Assembly (NCBI GenBank): GCA_029258375.1
Contig: JARHZA010000001.1
Span: 973,564 to 1,037,563, forward strand
Direction of reading: 5' to 3'
DNA length: 64,000 nt
Source of the DNA: Eubacterium sp.
GTDB lineage: Bacteria; Bacillota; Clostridia; Oscillospirales; Acutalibacteraceae
A program made the translations under genes and the position numbers. Positions 31,179 to 50,043 of the stretch are shown piece by piece; the first letter of the stretch is position 1, and each line of letters begins with the position of its first letter. The notes under the pieces were generated by a model. It did not search any database. It was not told where the DNA came from and saw only the letters and a program-made list of their open reading frames with translations.

Positions 31179-31204
31179 AGAGGAGCAAAGGCTCCTCTTT
31201 TTTT
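31177..31204 (+). terminator. Intrinsic terminator after the DUF1294 gene
   Basis: A 10-bp stem AAAGAGGAGC / GCTCCTCTTT with loop AAAG and a T run. It lies between convergent genes and may also serve spoIVA. Confidence 0.88.
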
Positions 31205-32672
31205 ATAAAATTATGCAGATTAACCCACTACAACCTTCATTTATAACCCTTTCTATAGTTTCTCTAAATTTATTTCTTGCATCATCTGGCATTCGTTCAA
31301 GTTTTCCACGTAACCCTTCATTAACAAGTTCGTGAAGCGATTTTCCAAAAATATCTGTTTCCCATAGAGCTGCCGGATTTTCTTCAAATTCTTTTAATAA
31401 ATACATTACAAGTTCTTGCGACTGGCTTTCACTACCTACAATTGGAGCAACTTCGGTATATGTATTACATTTAATCATATGAATAGAAGGCGCCTGTGCT
31501 TTAAGTTTGACTCCATATCGGCCACCCTGTTTCATAATTTCAGGTTCTTCAAGGGTTAATTCGTCAATGTTAGGCATTACTATGCCATACCCTGTTCGTT
31601 CAACTTCAGATAAGGCTTTTTTAAATCTTTTGAATTCTTTCTTCATTGAAGTTAACGAAATTACTTCTTTCATCAGTTCATTCTCATTAGAAATATTTTC
31701 GCCACACTCTTTTGAAAGTATGGAATAAAAGTATTTATTATCAATTAAAATTTTTATACTTATATTTCCATTCGATAAATCAAGATCAGAAATGTTTATG
31801 TTTTCAATATCTTCATTTTCTATAAATTCATCTAAAAACGATTTTACACTCCTAATATTACTAATTTTAGATGAAGATGATTTTACAGACGAAAATAATC
31901 TTGATTTTAATTCATTATTTCTATCAAGACTTTTTATCCAACTTGGAAAATTAAGAGATATACTTGATACAGGAAATTCATATAAAACTTTTTCAAGAAT
32001 TGAATTAATTTCATTTTCATCAAGTTCAAGGCAGTTAACTGGCACAACAGGAACATCATATTTTTTAGTTAATGTGTTGCAAAGAGAAATAACATCTTTC
32101 GAATTTGGTTCTGTTGAATTCATAATTACAATAAATGGTTTATTGATTGCTTTTAATTCTTCAATAACTCTTGTTTCAGCTTCCTCATATTCATCACGTG
32201 GAATACTACTTATAGAGCCGTCTGTTGTAATTACAAGACCAATTGTTGAATGTTCTTTAATTACTTTTTCTGTACCAATTTCTGCCGCCATATTAAATGG
32301 AATTTCTTCTTCATACCACGGAGTTCTAACCATACGTGGTTGATCTTCTTCAATATATCCAACAGAGCTTGGAACAATGTAACCAACACAATCGATAAGT
32401 CTAACTCTAAAATGCAAATTATCTTGCATTGAAAGTTCAATTGCTTCCTCTGGTATAAATTTAGGTTCGGTAGTCATTATTGTTTTGCCGGCTGCACTTT
32501 GCGGTAATTCATCTCTTGCTCGTTCTTTTTGGAATTCTCCATCAATTCTTGGAATAACAAGTGTATCCATGAATTTTTTTATAAAAGTTGATTTTCCAGT
32601 TCTAACTGGTCCAACAACACCAATATAGATATCTCCTTGTGTTCTTGTTGAAATATCATTATATATATTCAA
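31203..32672 (-). CDS. spoIVA: Stage IV sporulation protein A (coat morphogenetic ATPase)
   Basis: A 489-residue SpoIVA. Walker A is GPVRTGKST (21-29) in a TRAFAC-like ATPase domain; a middle domain and a conserved C-terminal region ending GLICIIL follow. SpoIVA polymerises with ATP hydrolysis on the forespore outer membrane, anchored by SpoVM, to form the coat basement. The start is TTG at 32672 with AGGGGGA 9 bp upstream; the nearby ATG is out of frame. The N-terminal lead (ISTRTQGDIYIGVVG) lines up with the Bacillus protein. It starts 12 bp after the SipL-like gene, so both share a transcript. Made in the mother cell. Confidence 0.96.
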   Translation of the reverse strand: MNIYNDISTRTQGDIYIGVVGPVRTGKSTFIKKFMDTLVIPRIDGEFQKERARDELPQSAAGKTIMTTEPKFIPEEAIELSMQDNLHFRVRLIDCVGYIVPSSVGYIEEDQPRMVRTPWYEEEIPFNMAAEIGTEKVIKEHSTIGLVITTDGSISSIPRDEYEEAETRVIEELKAINKPFIVIMNSTEPNSKDVISLCNTLTKKYDVPVVPVNCLELDENEINSILEKVLYEFPVSSISLNFPSWIKSLDRNNELKSRLFSSVKSSSSKISNIRSVKSFLDEFIENEDIENINISDLDLSNGNISIKILIDNKYFYSILSKECGENISNENELMKEVISLTSMKKEFKRFKKALSEVERTGYGIVMPNIDELTLEEPEIMKQGGRYGVKLKAQAPSIHMIKCNTYTEVAPIVGSESQSQELVMYLLKEFEENPAALWETDIFGKSLHELVNEGLRGKLERMPDDARNKFRETIERVINEGCSGLICIIL

Positions 32673-32684
32673 TTATATTTCCCC

Positions 32685-34142
32685 CTAAATTCCAGGTATG
32701 AGTAAAACACGCCTTGTATCAAGAACGTCATCACTGATCTCATTTTCTGCCTTTATTAAATCAACGGAACTTCTAAATTTTTTTGCTATATCCCAAATTT
32801 TCTCTTTATCTTTTGCAAAATAAATAACAAGTGCTGGTGAATCAGACAAATCTTTGTCTGTAAATTCAATATTACTTAATATTTGAAATGTTTGCTCAGT
32901 ATAGTCAATTGCGGAATATTTTATTGAATATCTTACGCTTATTGCTTGTTCTGATTTAATAACATAATCAAAAGATTTTATGTAGCAGGCTGTAATGCCG
33001 TAGTCAAAAAGTGAAATTTCTTTACGTTGACTTATAAATGAAATCTCAGAATCTTCATTTAAAACAAATGCACATAATTCGATTGTTTTATTGTCAATTA
33101 TAGCGAGAGACACATCTAATAATTCGATTATTTTAATGTTTTCAAAGTCAAATAATGTCGTTTCTGTTACAATATCATTCAAATAATTACAGTTTTTGTT
33201 TATAGTTATTTTATCAAAAGTATTAATAATTTCTTTTTCTGTTGAATAAGAATCAGTTGTTATTTTTGTATTAACTTTTCTATATACTGTTGCATTTATA
33301 TTTACTTCACCAATTAATTCAATGAATCTAAGCTCATTATTTTTATTAACTTTAGGCTTAGAATAGATATTTGCTAAATCAACGTTTACAATTGGAATAT
33401 CTTCTTCATCAATTCCATTTATATCTATAATTTTACTTAAAGAAAAAATTTTTTCGCATTTTTTAATTATTTCGTTTTCTGTGTCTGTTGTGTATAAAAA
33501 TGAAAAAGATAGGTTTAATTTAACAAGCATTTTGTCCTTTATTACTTTTATTTCATCAACTGAACAATTCCAAAAAGTGTTAATTATTTTTTTGATAACT
33601 TCACTATCTGCTGGAATTTCAGTTTGTTCTTCGAAATTAGCTTTTGATAAAGAGTTTCCAATATGAGAAAAATAAGATACATTTTCATATTTAATTTGAA
33701 CATTTTGCGCTTCTTCTATCATACTTATTGGCTTTAATGAACCAACCTTAATATTAAGAAGAAAGGCATTATGAATGTCAATTCTTCGCTGATTTATTAC
33801 TCTGTAATTATTGTACTTGTTTACTACTTTAATTTCTGAAGAAATTTCGCCCACGTTATCGTCAAGTGGAATAGATTTTTGAAAATCTTCTTCAAAATCT
33901 GCAGTAGTAATACAAGAAGTACTTTCGCTTATATAAGTTAAATAAATTTTACATTTACCATAAATTATTAAGTTCCCGTTTTTATAATCTGTACTTACTA
34001 TGTAATTATTAACTGCACATCTAATTATTTTCAGCATATCATCGTTATAAGACATAAGATTTTCTTGAAAATCTAAATCCATATCTACGCATTTTGAAAA
34101 GATTATATTATTCTCTCTAAGTTCCCTTATATTATTTTCCAT
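32685..34142 (-). CDS. sipL: SPOCS/LysM coat morphogenetic protein (SipL-like)
   Basis: A 485-residue protein. DUF3794 (SPOCS)-type beta-rich segments fill most of the chain, including IRCAVNNYIVSTDYKNG (about 40-56) and a second unit around residues 130-240. The last 50 residues form a LysM domain (VIYFAKDKEKIWDIAKKFR onwards). Clostridioides difficile SipL has this architecture and binds SpoIVA through LysM, acting as the counterpart of Bacillus SpoVID. Here the gene lies 12 bp upstream of spoIVA, which strongly supports this role. AAGGAG lies 8 bp before the ATG. A putative sigma-E promoter and an upstream terminator suggest its own mother-cell transcript. Confidence 0.85.
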   Translation of the reverse strand: MENNIRELRENNIIFSKCVDMDLDFQENLMSYNDDMLKIIRCAVNNYIVSTDYKNGNLIIYGKCKIYLTYISESTSCITTADFEEDFQKSIPLDDNVGEISSEIKVVNKYNNYRVINQRRIDIHNAFLLNIKVGSLKPISMIEEAQNVQIKYENVSYFSHIGNSLSKANFEEQTEIPADSEVIKKIINTFWNCSVDEIKVIKDKMLVKLNLSFSFLYTTDTENEIIKKCEKIFSLSKIIDINGIDEEDIPIVNVDLANIYSKPKVNKNNELRFIELIGEVNINATVYRKVNTKITTDSYSTEKEIINTFDKITINKNCNYLNDIVTETTLFDFENIKIIELLDVSLAIIDNKTIELCAFVLNEDSEISFISQRKEISLFDYGITACYIKSFDYVIKSEQAISVRYSIKYSAIDYTEQTFQILSNIEFTDKDLSDSPALVIYFAKDKEKIWDIAKKFRSSVDLIKAENEISDDVLDTRRVLLIPGI

Positions 34143-34171: not shown

Positions 34172-34200
34172 AACTTATGCAAAAAAATACAAAGATATAA
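34172..34200 (-). promoter_or_regulatory. Putative sigma-E promoter of sipL-spoIVA
   Basis: On the minus strand TTATATC (34200-34194), a 14-bp spacer and CATAAGTT (34179-34172) resemble the sigma-E boxes ATATT and CATACAAT. It sits 30 bp before sipL and directly after a terminator, where a separate sporulation promoter would be expected. Confidence 0.4.
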
Positions 34201-34234
34201 CAAAAAGCTTCGCAATTATACGAAGCTTTTTGTT
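34199..34234 (-). terminator. Intrinsic terminator after spoVM
   Basis: A perfect 14-bp stem AACAAAAAGCTTCG / CGAAGCTTTTTGTT with an 8-nt loop, starting 13 bp after the spoVM stop. It closes the upstream operon and abuts the sipL promoter. Confidence 0.8.
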
Positions 34235-34246
34235 TTTAAGTAAATA

Positions 34247-34324
34247 TTAACTTTTTTTAATTTTAAAAATCATCCTCATAATCGGTGCAATAAACTTTGG
34301 TGGTTTGACAATTACAACTTTCAA
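34247..34324 (-). CDS. spoVM: SpoVM, 25-residue amphipathic coat-anchoring peptide
   Basis: A 25-codon gene starting at TTG (34324-34322) with GGAGGAG 5 bp upstream (34336-34330). The peptide MKVVIVKPPKFIAPIMRMIF followed by KIKKS aligns without gaps to Bacillus SpoVM: Lys7, Pro9, Lys10, Phe11, Ile15 and Arg17 are the same. Pro9 and the amphipathic helix let SpoVM settle on the convex forespore membrane and recruit SpoIVA. Context fits: in Bacillus the order is prpC-prkC-rsgA-rpe-thiN-spoVM, and here prpC-prkC-rsgA-thiN lie just upstream. SpoIVA, its partner, is encoded two genes downstream. The ribosome site lies in the loop of a weak A/T inverted repeat (AAAAAAT/ATTTTTT). Confidence 0.85.
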   Translation of the reverse strand: MKVVIVKPPKFIAPIMRMIFKIKKS

Positions 34325-34338
34325 AAAATCTCCTCCAA

Positions 34339-34482
34339 TTATTTTTTACAGCACATTATTCCGAGAATGATTACTACAAATGCAAGAACTCTTGCAATCC
34401 AAGCATCTGGAAGGCAAACAGAAACAACACAACCAAGACCAAATGCAATCCAAAGAAAATCTCTACGACACATCTTTTTCAT
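34339..34482 (-). CDS. 47-residue cysteine-rich membrane peptide between thiN and spoVM
   Basis: Start ATG at 34482 with GAGGTG 9 bp upstream. The peptide begins MKKMCRRDFLWIAFGLG, has one or two hydrophobic stretches separated by a short LPDAWIAR turn, and ends in CCKK; it holds five cysteines. Small clostridial membrane peptides of this general look are known but I cannot name a family or function. It ends 14 bp before spoVM, so the two are on one transcript. A hairpin (34484-34515) ends one base before the ATG and partly hides the ribosome site. A role in spore coat assembly is inference from position only. Confidence 0.65.
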   Translation of the reverse strand: MKKMCRRDFLWIAFGLGCVVSVCLPDAWIARVLAFVVIILGIMCCKK

Positions 34483-34483
34483 A

Positions 34484-34515
34484 ATAGTAAACACCTCTTT
34501 CGCTGTATTTACTAT
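34484..34515 (-). repeat. 11-bp hairpin next to the start of the 47-aa gene
   Basis: On the minus strand ATAGTAAATAC (34515-34505) can pair with GTGTTTACTAT (34494-34484) over 11 positions with one U-G pair and a 10-nt loop. The 3' arm and loop contain the ribosome site GAGGTG. No T run follows, so it is not a terminator. Confidence 0.55.
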
Positions 34516-34533
34516 ATGCTATGAATTACAAAA

Positions 34534-35166
34534 TTAGTCGTTACTTAAAATTACTATTAGTGTTCCCTTTTTTACAGAAACTATTGCTTTTTTTTTTTTA
34601 AAATGATTGCTCTCACCATATTGGTCAAAACTATTTAAAGTAATATTATCTACTTCATAATATGAATCTTTTATAGAAACCCCTTCAGATTTATCAGAAA
34701 ACGAAAAAACAGAAAAGTACTTATATTCACTGTCATCTAATTCTATTTTATCGTTTACAAAAAATATTTTATTTTTTTCGTTTTTAATAAATGCAGAAAC
34801 ATTGTTTTGTAAACAATAATTTAAACAAAGTAAATTGGCATAAGTATGATCAATTCTATTTCCAATAGCATTATAAATTTCGATTTGTTTATATCCACGT
34901 TTTACCGCTTCTTTAACACAAAAAAATGTATCTGTATCATCCTTCTCTACTGGTAATTTGATAATTTCACAAGATATACTTGGTTTTACAGAAGAGTCAA
35001 AATCACCAATTATCAGATCAGGAATTATTTTAGCATCAATACACCTCTTGTAACCAGAATCTGCAGCAATTACAAACGATGACTCGTCAATAACTTTGCT
35101 TAAATAATCTGAATCATTGTTAGGTGCACCAGAAACAATAACACACTTTACTTTTTTAGTTCCCAT
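34534..35166 (-). CDS. thiN: Thiamine diphosphokinase
   Basis: A 210-residue ThiN. IAADSGYKRC (about 33-42), LIIGDFDSS (about 50-58) and EKDDTDTFFCVKEA (about 75-88) with NRIDHTYANL form the ATP and thiamine site. It transfers pyrophosphate from ATP to thiamine. It overlaps rsgA by 19 bp, and rpe, which separates the two in Bacillus, is absent here. Confidence 0.92.
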   Translation of the reverse strand: MGTKKVKCVIVSGAPNNDSDYLSKVIDESSFVIAADSGYKRCIDAKIIPDLIIGDFDSSVKPSISCEIIKLPVEKDDTDTFFCVKEAVKRGYKQIEIYNAIGNRIDHTYANLLCLNYCLQNNVSAFIKNEKNKIFFVNDKIELDDSEYKYFSVFSFSDKSEGVSIKDSYYEVDNITLNSFDQYGESNHFKKKKAIVSVKKGTLIVILSND

Positions 35167-48526: not shown

Positions 48527-50008
48527 TCATAAATTGTCTAACTTTTCAACAATAGAACGATATATAGGGCAACAATCGCCAGCACCACTTTTTCCGTCTT
48601 CAGTCATTACAACAATTGAATACTTTGGATTATTATATGGATAAAATCCTGCAAACCATGTGTTTAATATTTCTTTTTCATTAGTATATCTACCACTTTG
48701 AGCGGTTGATGTTTTGCCAGCTGAATTGTTATTATGTTCAGCAATTTTTCCTGTACCATCTGTAACAACATATCTCATATAATCGCTAATTGTTTTAGCT
48801 GTTTTTGAGCTCATAACTTTTTTACGGGTTAAACTATTTTTTCGTATTAGATTTTTGTTTTTATCTACATTGCCATGAATAAGTTTTGGTTCAGTGTAGT
48901 ATCCACCATTTGCAAAAGCTGAAACAGCAGATGCAAATTGTAAAGGCGTAGCCGTTAAACTACCCTGTCCAAAACCAAGAAGTGAAAGCTGACCTTTTGA
49001 CTGTAAAACAGATTTTGAAGGTAAATTACCATTGCTAATTTCCCAATCATTAAAGAATATAGTTTTATCGCCAAAACCCAGCTTTTCAGCCATTTCTAAA
49101 ATTTTATCTGAACCAAGTTTTAATGAGAGATTTACAAAATAGCAGTTGCATGAATTTGCAAGAGCAGTTTTTAAATCTTCACTACCATGTGTTTTATTAT
49201 TTTGACAAGAAAATGTAGTATCACCAACTACTATACTGCCGTCACAATCATATTCTAGATTTACATTGTTTTCCAACGATGTAGCTGAAACAACTAATTT
49301 AAATACCGAACCAACGCAATATGGAGTAAAAGATCTATTTATATTATCATTTCCGGCACTATAACTTGCAAGAATCTCATTAGTATTTACATCAAGCACA
49401 ATCACCGAACCTTTTTTCATATTTTTTGCAGATTCTTCAACAATATTTTGAATTTTTTTATCTATTGTAAGACAAATACCTTCTAAACTATCGTAATTTT
49501 CTTCTAAAACAGTTCCTTTATCCCCTTCTAAAAGACGTCCCTTTGCATCAACAGTAAAATTTATTTCTTTTTTACCAATGACATCATTGTTATATGATTG
49601 AATAGTTTTTGTTAAAATATCTACTTTTTTTTCGTTTCGTTCAACTACTTCAAATATTTGAATATGTTTACAAGTTTTATAGTTGTTTATTTCTTTAACA
49701 ACTGGATATCCCTTTTGCAACTCATTTTTTATCTCTTTTATCTCTTTGAAGCTAAATAAGTTTTCGAGTTCAGACAAGCATTTTTCCGTTGGGCGTATAA
49801 CAGCAATATATTTATTATTTTTATTTGTTATTTTATCAAGATTTCTGTCATAAAGTGTTGGATATAATTTTCCAAGATTTAGCGTGTAGCTATTATAACC
49901 AATAGAGACACTATATTCTCCACTAAATATGATATAGCCTACCCTTCCCAATGTTCCAGTAAATAACAAACAAAAAACACATAAAATACAAATAATTCGT
50001 TTATACAT
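48527..50008 (-). CDS. Class B penicillin-binding protein (transpeptidase)
   Basis: A 493-residue protein with a short N-terminal membrane anchor (about 2-24) and a transpeptidase domain: SxxK in CVGSVFKLV (about 235), SxN in LANSCNCYF and KTS in AGKTSTAQSG (about 430). KTS replaces the usual KTG. It is shorter than most class B PBPs, with a reduced N-terminal dimerisation part. It cross-links peptidoglycan. The start at 50008 follows AGGGGTG; the longer frame lacks a site. The ribosome site lies in a hairpin (50015-50043). mltG lies two genes upstream. Confidence 0.85.
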   Translation of the reverse strand: MYKRIICILCVFCLLFTGTLGRVGYIIFSGEYSVSIGYNSYTLNLGKLYPTLYDRNLDKITNKNNKYIAVIRPTEKCLSELENLFSFKEIKEIKNELQKGYPVVKEINNYKTCKHIQIFEVVERNEKKVDILTKTIQSYNNDVIGKKEINFTVDAKGRLLEGDKGTVLEENYDSLEGICLTIDKKIQNIVEESAKNMKKGSVIVLDVNTNEILASYSAGNDNINRSFTPYCVGSVFKLVVSATSLENNVNLEYDCDGSIVVGDTTFSCQNNKTHGSEDLKTALANSCNCYFVNLSLKLGSDKILEMAEKLGFGDKTIFFNDWEISNGNLPSKSVLQSKGQLSLLGFGQGSLTATPLQFASAVSAFANGGYYTEPKLIHGNVDKNKNLIRKNSLTRKKVMSSKTAKTISDYMRYVVTDGTGKIAEHNNNSAGKTSTAQSGRYTNEKEILNTWFAGFYPYNNPKYSIVVMTEDGKSGAGDCCPIYRSIVEKLDNL

Positions 50009-50014
50009 AATAAT

Positions 50015-50043
50015 ACACCCCTGTGTATTATTCACAGAGGTGT
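50015..50043 (-). repeat. 11-bp hairpin that covers the ribosome site of the PBP gene
   Basis: On the minus strand ACACCTCTGTG (50043-50033) can pair with CACAGGGGTGT (50025-50015) at all 11 positions, one being U-G, around a 7-nt loop. The 3' arm contains AGGGGTG, the ribosome site for the ATG at 50008. It is not followed by a T run. Confidence 0.6.

Follow-up and report, generated by a model that had tools for sequence, protein, structure and literature searches.

SpoVM is produced in the mother cell, resides in the membrane that surrounds the forespore, and holds SpoIVA, which in turn is joined by SipL (PMC5607322, PMC6436350, and PMC12004969). The peptide serves as a model for how a tiny peptide can sense micrometre-scale curvature, and this model leans on Pro9 (PMC12004969). 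In the legend of Fig. 1 of PMC5607322, Pro9 is described as the sole completely conserved residue of SpoVM and as essential for recognizing positive curvature. The SpoVM of C. difficile binds SpoIVA and depends on sigma-E, and its gene shares a transcript with the 50-aa gene directly upstream, CD25622, which is primarily conserved in, or unique to, the Peptostreptococcaceae (PMC5607322). The genes spoVM, spoIVA, and sipL are all under sigma-E in that bacterium (PMC5607322). Genome annotation seldom recognizes spoVM, and the existence of distant SpoVMs in clostridia where none had been found was left open by Galperin et al. (2012; PMC3533761).

The window, which is the whole stretch of 64,000 nucleotides that was analyzed, contains a spoVM gene at 34247-34324. 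This and all other features given here with coordinates lie on the reverse strand. The gene has 25 codons with TTG as the first codon and TAA as the stop, and its peptide is LKVVIVKPPKFIAPIMRMIFKIKKS followed by the stop, equal to MKVVIVKPPKFIAPIMRMIFKIKKS. A likely ribosome-binding site, GGAGGAG (34330-34336), is located 5 bases 5' of the TTG, and G-rich stretches are found 5' of the spoVM start in many relatives. The TTG is preceded by KIIGGDF, and no other ATG, GTG, or TTG start was found in frame back to the stop. The NCBIfam model NF033436.3 (SpoVM_broad) matched the peptide with an E-value of 4.6e-7 and 29.7 bits, aligning residues 1-24 without gaps to positions 1-24 of 26. When the whole genome (G000; 1.72 Mb, three contigs) was searched in six frames for SpoVM, this ORF ranked first (E 5.0e-5) and the runner-up had an E-value of 0.31. 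A phmmer search of PDB chains gave no match to the window SpoVM.

Relatives of the same genus were used to examine coding constraint. The search covered 80 genomes and gave matches with E-values of 0.1 or less in 69, and 65 loci were usable. The 65 include G073, truncated at the end of its contig, and G075, in which the ORF continues into a 189-aa frame. An apparent match in G036 was dropped as spurious, and G077 was left out, its copy being cut after residue 9. In four genomes (G004, G018, G070, and G081) SpoIVA was present on the fetched contig and no SpoVM was found there; contig ends explain some of these cases, not clearly all. All 65 loci start at the homologous codon (ATG 39, GTG 17, and TTG 9). 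In 18 sister pairs, dN/dS was 0.08 in frame versus 0.86 in frame +1. Several residues near the hinge are fixed or nearly so, namely K2 (65/65), K10 (64/65), R17 (64/65), and F20 (64 of 64 read). Judged from the profile match, the rank in the genome, the conserved start, and strong purifying selection, the ORF is an authentic spoVM. A chance ORF was rejected on the profile match, the top place in the genome, and dN/dS, and a pseudogene on dN/dS in the genus pairs and in pairs of genes without Pro9.

The window gene scores below the curated cut-off of NF033436 (29.7 versus 31 bits), and this curated model would therefore miss it. The cut-off was passed by 21 of 60 relatives, 16 of which were genus mates, and wherever the locus of these genus mates was fetched, spoVM lay in the same gene place as in the window. 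The low score thus reflects the threshold of the model and not another family. The sequence-only reading had proposed a 25-codon spoVM with a TTG start, aligned without gaps to SpoVM of Bacillus, next to thiN, and of a kind that gene finders tend to miss. The gene and the residues that had been named (K7, P8, P9, K10, F11, A13, P14, I15, and R17) proved to be as described, and the family profile search found the similarity. The thiN context also holds, with a 47-aa ORF between the two genes, and the proneness to be missed is consistent with both PMC3533761 and the score below the NCBIfam cut-off.

The gene order on this strand is rlmN, prpC, prkC, rsgA, thiN, smORF, spoVM, sipL, and spoIVA (rlmN, prpC, and prkC named by eye). 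Thus, spoVM has thiN upstream, encoding thiamine diphosphokinase (34534-35166; TIGR01378, E 1.7e-41), and sipL and spoIVA downstream. The sipL product (32685-34142) has a SPOCS domain (PF12673, E 1.1e-12) and a C-terminal LysM domain (PF01476, E 4.1e-5), and spoIVA (31203-32672) encodes the coat basement ATPase (TIGR02836, E 3.8e-208). A terminator-like hairpin 3' of spoVM (34199-34234) separates it from sipL; it has 16 pairs and a T-rich tail, with a predicted RNA fold of -21.7 kcal/mol and a z-score of -7.95. A promoter-like element, TTATAT-N14-GCATA (34176-34200), precedes sipL. Spacers from 15 of the 17 genomes of the clade described below were aligned; by eye, all 15 contain GCATA and 13 contain GTTATAT. 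In the two genomes left out, sipL is not close. A conserved -10-like element, CATAGCATATAGT (34511-34523), precedes the smORF, and its CATA was seen by eye in 17 of 17 clade rows and in 15 of the 16 other genus rows shown. We take both elements to be of the sigma-E type. The promoter pattern has one exact match in the window and four matches with at most one mismatch, versus 4.19 expected; the pattern alone is not above chance there, and it is conservation that argues for a putative promoter. Also on this strand is a 502-aa protein (48527-50035) that appears by eye to be like a penicillin-binding transpeptidase.

From these signals, smORF-spoVM and sipL-spoIVA look like two separate sporulation transcripts. 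The expression of spoIVA and sipL in C. difficile exceeds that of spoVM by a factor of 50 to 100 (PMC5607322), which agrees with separate transcription units. The clustering of spoVM with sipL and spoIVA is common, not universal. Among the 65 genus loci, 61 of which extend far enough, 33 have sipL no more than 600 nt from the start of spoVM. Of 20 loci from other genera, 7 have sipL and spoIVA close 3' of spoVM. In C. difficile, sipL and spoIVA presumably lie apart from spoVM.

The peptide possesses Pro9, which is absent from 6 of the 65 genus loci. Residues 8-9 were compared across the 64 genus genomes in a tree (five neighboring proteins, 1753 columns, quick method, midpoint root). They are Ser-Pro in 47, Pro-Pro in 10 including the window, Pro-Ser in 6, and Ala-Pro in 1. 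The Pro-Pro, Pro-Ser, and Ala-Pro genomes together form one fully supported clade of 17, and within Pro-Pro, Pro-Ser occurs in three separate places (G021 with G098; G032 with G086 and G061; and G033). The pattern requires five changes on this tree. The same three Pro-Ser places are reproduced by a SpoIVA tree of 94 genomes, whose outgroup did not form one side of a branch at the root. The sequence-only reading had singled out Pro8-Pro9 and Ala13-Pro14 as departures that could change how the helix sits in curved membrane. Both pairs are present. Ala13-Pro14 turned out not to be peculiar to the window gene (residue 13 is Ala in 63/65 and residue 14 is Pro in 62/65 genus loci), and Pro8-Pro9 is also common to the 10 of 64 genomes in the tree and to 11 of the 75 genomes sampled from other families. 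The relatives add interest to the proposed effect on the helix, since Pro9 was repeatedly lost in the presence of Pro8.

Codon 9 is CCN in 59 of 65 genes and TCN in the remaining 6, which are the Pro-Ser genes, and the two codons are one base apart. All 48 Ser-Pro genes use AGT or AGC for Ser8, codons that differ from CCN at two bases or more. No Ser9 was found in the 47 genus genomes with Ser8-Pro9, and dN/dS was 0.06 for each of two Pro-Ser pairs. The simplest reading by parsimony is that Ser-Pro became Pro-Pro once and that Pro9 was then lost three times. The helical moment of residues 10-23 is 0.56-0.62 in six Pro-Pro, Pro-Ser, and Ser-Pro forms versus 0.44 in one Ser-Ser form.

SpoIVA was inspected for matching changes. 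The only variable columns that separate the Pro-Ser from the Pro-Pro rows are 258 and 325, while columns 42, 88, and 135 separate the Pro8 clade from the Ser-Pro rows; none of the columns distinguishing the residue 8-9 classes points to SpoVM contact. At residue 482, the 15 clade rows that extend that far all have Ser. Asn is found there in all 8 rows from other genera and in 7 of the 8 Ser-Pro rows listed, out of 19 aligned, the exception being Ser in G014. This residue is near the C-terminal end that is said to contact SpoVM; its placement relative to B. subtilis Gly486 is not secure, and nothing was concluded from it.

Forms without Pro9 are not limited to this genus. In 132 non-genus genomes Pro9 was missing in 24, comprising 21 of 57 from the same family and 3 of 75 from elsewhere, and several genera share such forms. 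With the genus added, 30 of 197 genomes have no Pro9, which is not a prevalence figure since the set mixes general-profile matches with matches of a profile (A2) built from Pro9-less forms and is thus enriched in variants. No proline was present in residues 1-20 in 22 of the 197, 21 of them from the same family, and 8 of the 197 have Pro8 without Pro9. To account for where Pro9 is present, the SpoIVA tree requires at least seven changes, six of which follow from branches with good support. Among the deep branches of this tree, several are weak or long. A dN/dS of 0.06 was obtained for five pairs of other SpoVM genes without Pro9. That some forms have no proline in this region shows that not every SpoVM needs a proline hinge.

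It is possible, although we consider it doubtful, that SpoVM is a minor accessory in Clostridia that contain SipL and that the Pro9 hinge is under relaxed constraint, with Pro8 and Ser9 arising by drift. The loss of only about 3- to 4-fold heat resistance in C. difficile spoVM mutants (PMC5607322) would fit, and so would the 22 of 197 genomes of the variant-enriched set with no proline in residues 1-20, where no proline hinge would be needed. Drift is harder to reconcile with the fixation of K2, K10, R17, and F20 near the hinge across the genus and with a dN/dS of 0.05-0.08 that extends to the Pro8 and Pro9-less forms. In addition, Ser9 arose three times within the Pro8 clade and in none of the 47 genus mates with Ser8-Pro9. 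We prefer a moved hinge to drift; the proline series suggests that Pro8 can take over the hinge.

The ORF between thiN and spoVM (the smORF, 34339-34482) lies 14 nt upstream of spoVM and encodes a predicted 47-aa two-helix membrane microprotein. All 65 genus loci have it 5' of spoVM at a spacing of -20 to 41 nt, and its dN/dS is 0.08 in 14 genus pairs of the same length. Outside the genus, 117 loci absent from the smORF profile were searched at E 0.01, after 12 genomes that fed the profile and 3 with less than 300 nt upstream had been dropped. In 74 of these the profile matched upstream of spoVM, with no match at any other place of the locus on either strand; in 43 no upstream match was found. 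Among the smORF-negative loci listed, some have a hydrophobic ORF upstream of spoVM and others have none. When 293 class genomes were searched with a narrow smORF profile, it matched in 11, in every case immediately 5' of spoVM. A broad profile (A5) matched 97 of the 293 at one place each. In all 45 genomes with both genes (SpoVM at E 1e-4) the smORF was directly upstream of spoVM, on the same strand and at 14-115 nt, a linkage that is not fully blind, 11 of the 45 having supplied rows to A5. At E 1e-3, no A5 match was found in 44 of 89 SpoVM-positive genomes, and the smORF is not a universal SpoVM partner at the search sensitivity used.

Linkage was also examined in a blind set of 52 genomes in which the smORF alone had matched. 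In 44 of them, the best SpoVM-profile place of a 1.1-kb stretch lay between -15 and +150 nt relative to the smORF stop, and in 8 it lay elsewhere. A score above the best decoy (6.8 bits) was obtained in 39, and five of the matches within the interval were not above it. Further forms with Pro8 and no Pro9 were found 3' of the smORF in G794, G843, G882, G951, G982, and G1038. The smORF family serves to flag SpoVM genes overlooked by profile searches. Four loci (L372, L382, L385, and L389) have SpoVM-like peptides of the type MKIVVLKMPxFIGKIL 3' of the smORF, in genomes that had given no SpoVM match at E 1e-4. Two matches were rejected, the one within the interval in G809, which by eye is chance, and the smORF match in G993, which is false and inside a 412-aa frame. 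In G780, G809, G945, and G961 (L371, L377, L401, and L403), all of one family, a smORF-like gene is followed by no convincing SpoVM; spoVM may have been lost there or be elsewhere.

No match to the smORF family was found in NCBIfam at E 0.01, and the smORF profile had none among PDB sequences. Pfam gave nothing convincing, DUF6249 being matched by 2 of 22 members with a best E-value of 0.0012. The 22 aligned members share a layout of two hydrophobic helices around a proline, with mostly positive ends. An AlphaFold2 model has helices at residues 5-23 and 27-46 (pLDDT 73, pTM 0.38). The family reads as two-helix membrane microproteins, without a model in NCBIfam, and its linkage suggests that the smORF may work with SpoVM. 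It is unlikely that the smORF is a mere translated leader that couples translation to spoVM and has no function as a protein. The short gap in both sets, 14-115 nt in 45 class genomes and -20 to 41 nt across the 65 genus loci, is what such a leader would have. In C. difficile, moreover, an insertion in the upstream gene, which is likely polar, has the same phenotype as one in spoVM (PMC5607322), which argues against a large separate role of the upstream gene in that bacterium. A leader would not, however, need conserved amino acids (dN/dS 0.08), the conserved Gly and Pro, or the two-helix layout with mostly positive ends that is seen in the 22 members and in the model. It is very improbable, and already disfavored, that the Pro8-Ser9 and Ser8-Ser9 peptides are decaying remnants of spoVM, for although ten variants, eight of them without Pro9, score just 12.5-29.2 bits against NF033436 (cut-off 31), dN/dS is 0.06 in the tested pairs, the frames are intact, the smORF adjoins, and Pro9-less forms occur across genera.

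The explanation that we favor, with a probability of about 0.65 for the whole, is that the ORF is the SpoVM of an uncultured clostridium that possesses spore-coat genes. Its expression in the mother cell would probably come from a short sporulation transcript, shared with the smORF and ending at the hairpin, while sipL and spoIVA would be transcribed from their own promoter. Like its homologues, the peptide would be an amphipathic helix lodged in the mother-cell membrane that envelops the forespore and would keep SpoIVA at this membrane. Its N-terminal segment would be hinged by proline. In the clade of the window the hinge would first have become Pro8-Pro9. Two prolines would have made Pro9 redundant, so that several lineages could lose it through a one-base change from CCN to TCN, and in these the hinge would now be at Pro8. 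The smORF would be a membrane hairpin that acts with SpoVM, perhaps by helping its insertion or stability.

A wider proposal is tentative. In many Clostridia, SpoVM and the smORF may constitute a two-peptide membrane module. With the smORF product and SipL present, the proline would be free to slide from position 9 to 8 by way of Pro-Pro or to vanish, and curvature would be read by the module or by SpoIVA-SipL and not by the kink of SpoVM alone. The smORF family also raises the question of which SpoVM tasks need a partner.

The window SpoVM is like that of B. subtilis (NF033436) in its length and its gapless profile match. We take the B. subtilis peptide to match it at K2, K7, P9, K10, F11, I15, and R17, with presumably 8 of the first 24 residues identical. 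The window gene differs in its TTG start, in having Pro8 beside Pro9 and Ala13-Pro14 in place of Gly-Gly, and in being flanked by the smORF upstream and by sipL and spoIVA downstream. The gene is a new member of SpoVM and the shifted proline is a new variant. No report of a shifted proline or of Pro9 variation in SpoVM was found in the open-licence literature searched, and searches there on genes upstream of spoVM yielded nothing further.

The arrangement resembles CD25622-spoVM of C. difficile in having a small ORF directly upstream of spoVM (50 aa for CD25622 and 47 aa for the smORF). The two were likened by position, size, and the published description of CD25622, and the smORF differs in being found in many family groups of the class. 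No mention of CD25622 besides that in PMC5607322 was found in the literature searched. If CD25622 belongs to the smORF family, then the class-wide family widens the range given for it beyond the Peptostreptococcaceae. The engineered P9A SpoVM and the variants with a proline reintroduced at positions 7-13 (Gill 2015, Kim 2017, in PMC12004969) ask whether the kink proline can move. Natural SpoVMs with a moved or lost Pro9, in close relatives and in a gene under selection, are a ready test set. The Pro8-Ser9 forms of the window's clade pose the same question as the engineered variants, with the difference that those were made in the laboratory and these are natural.
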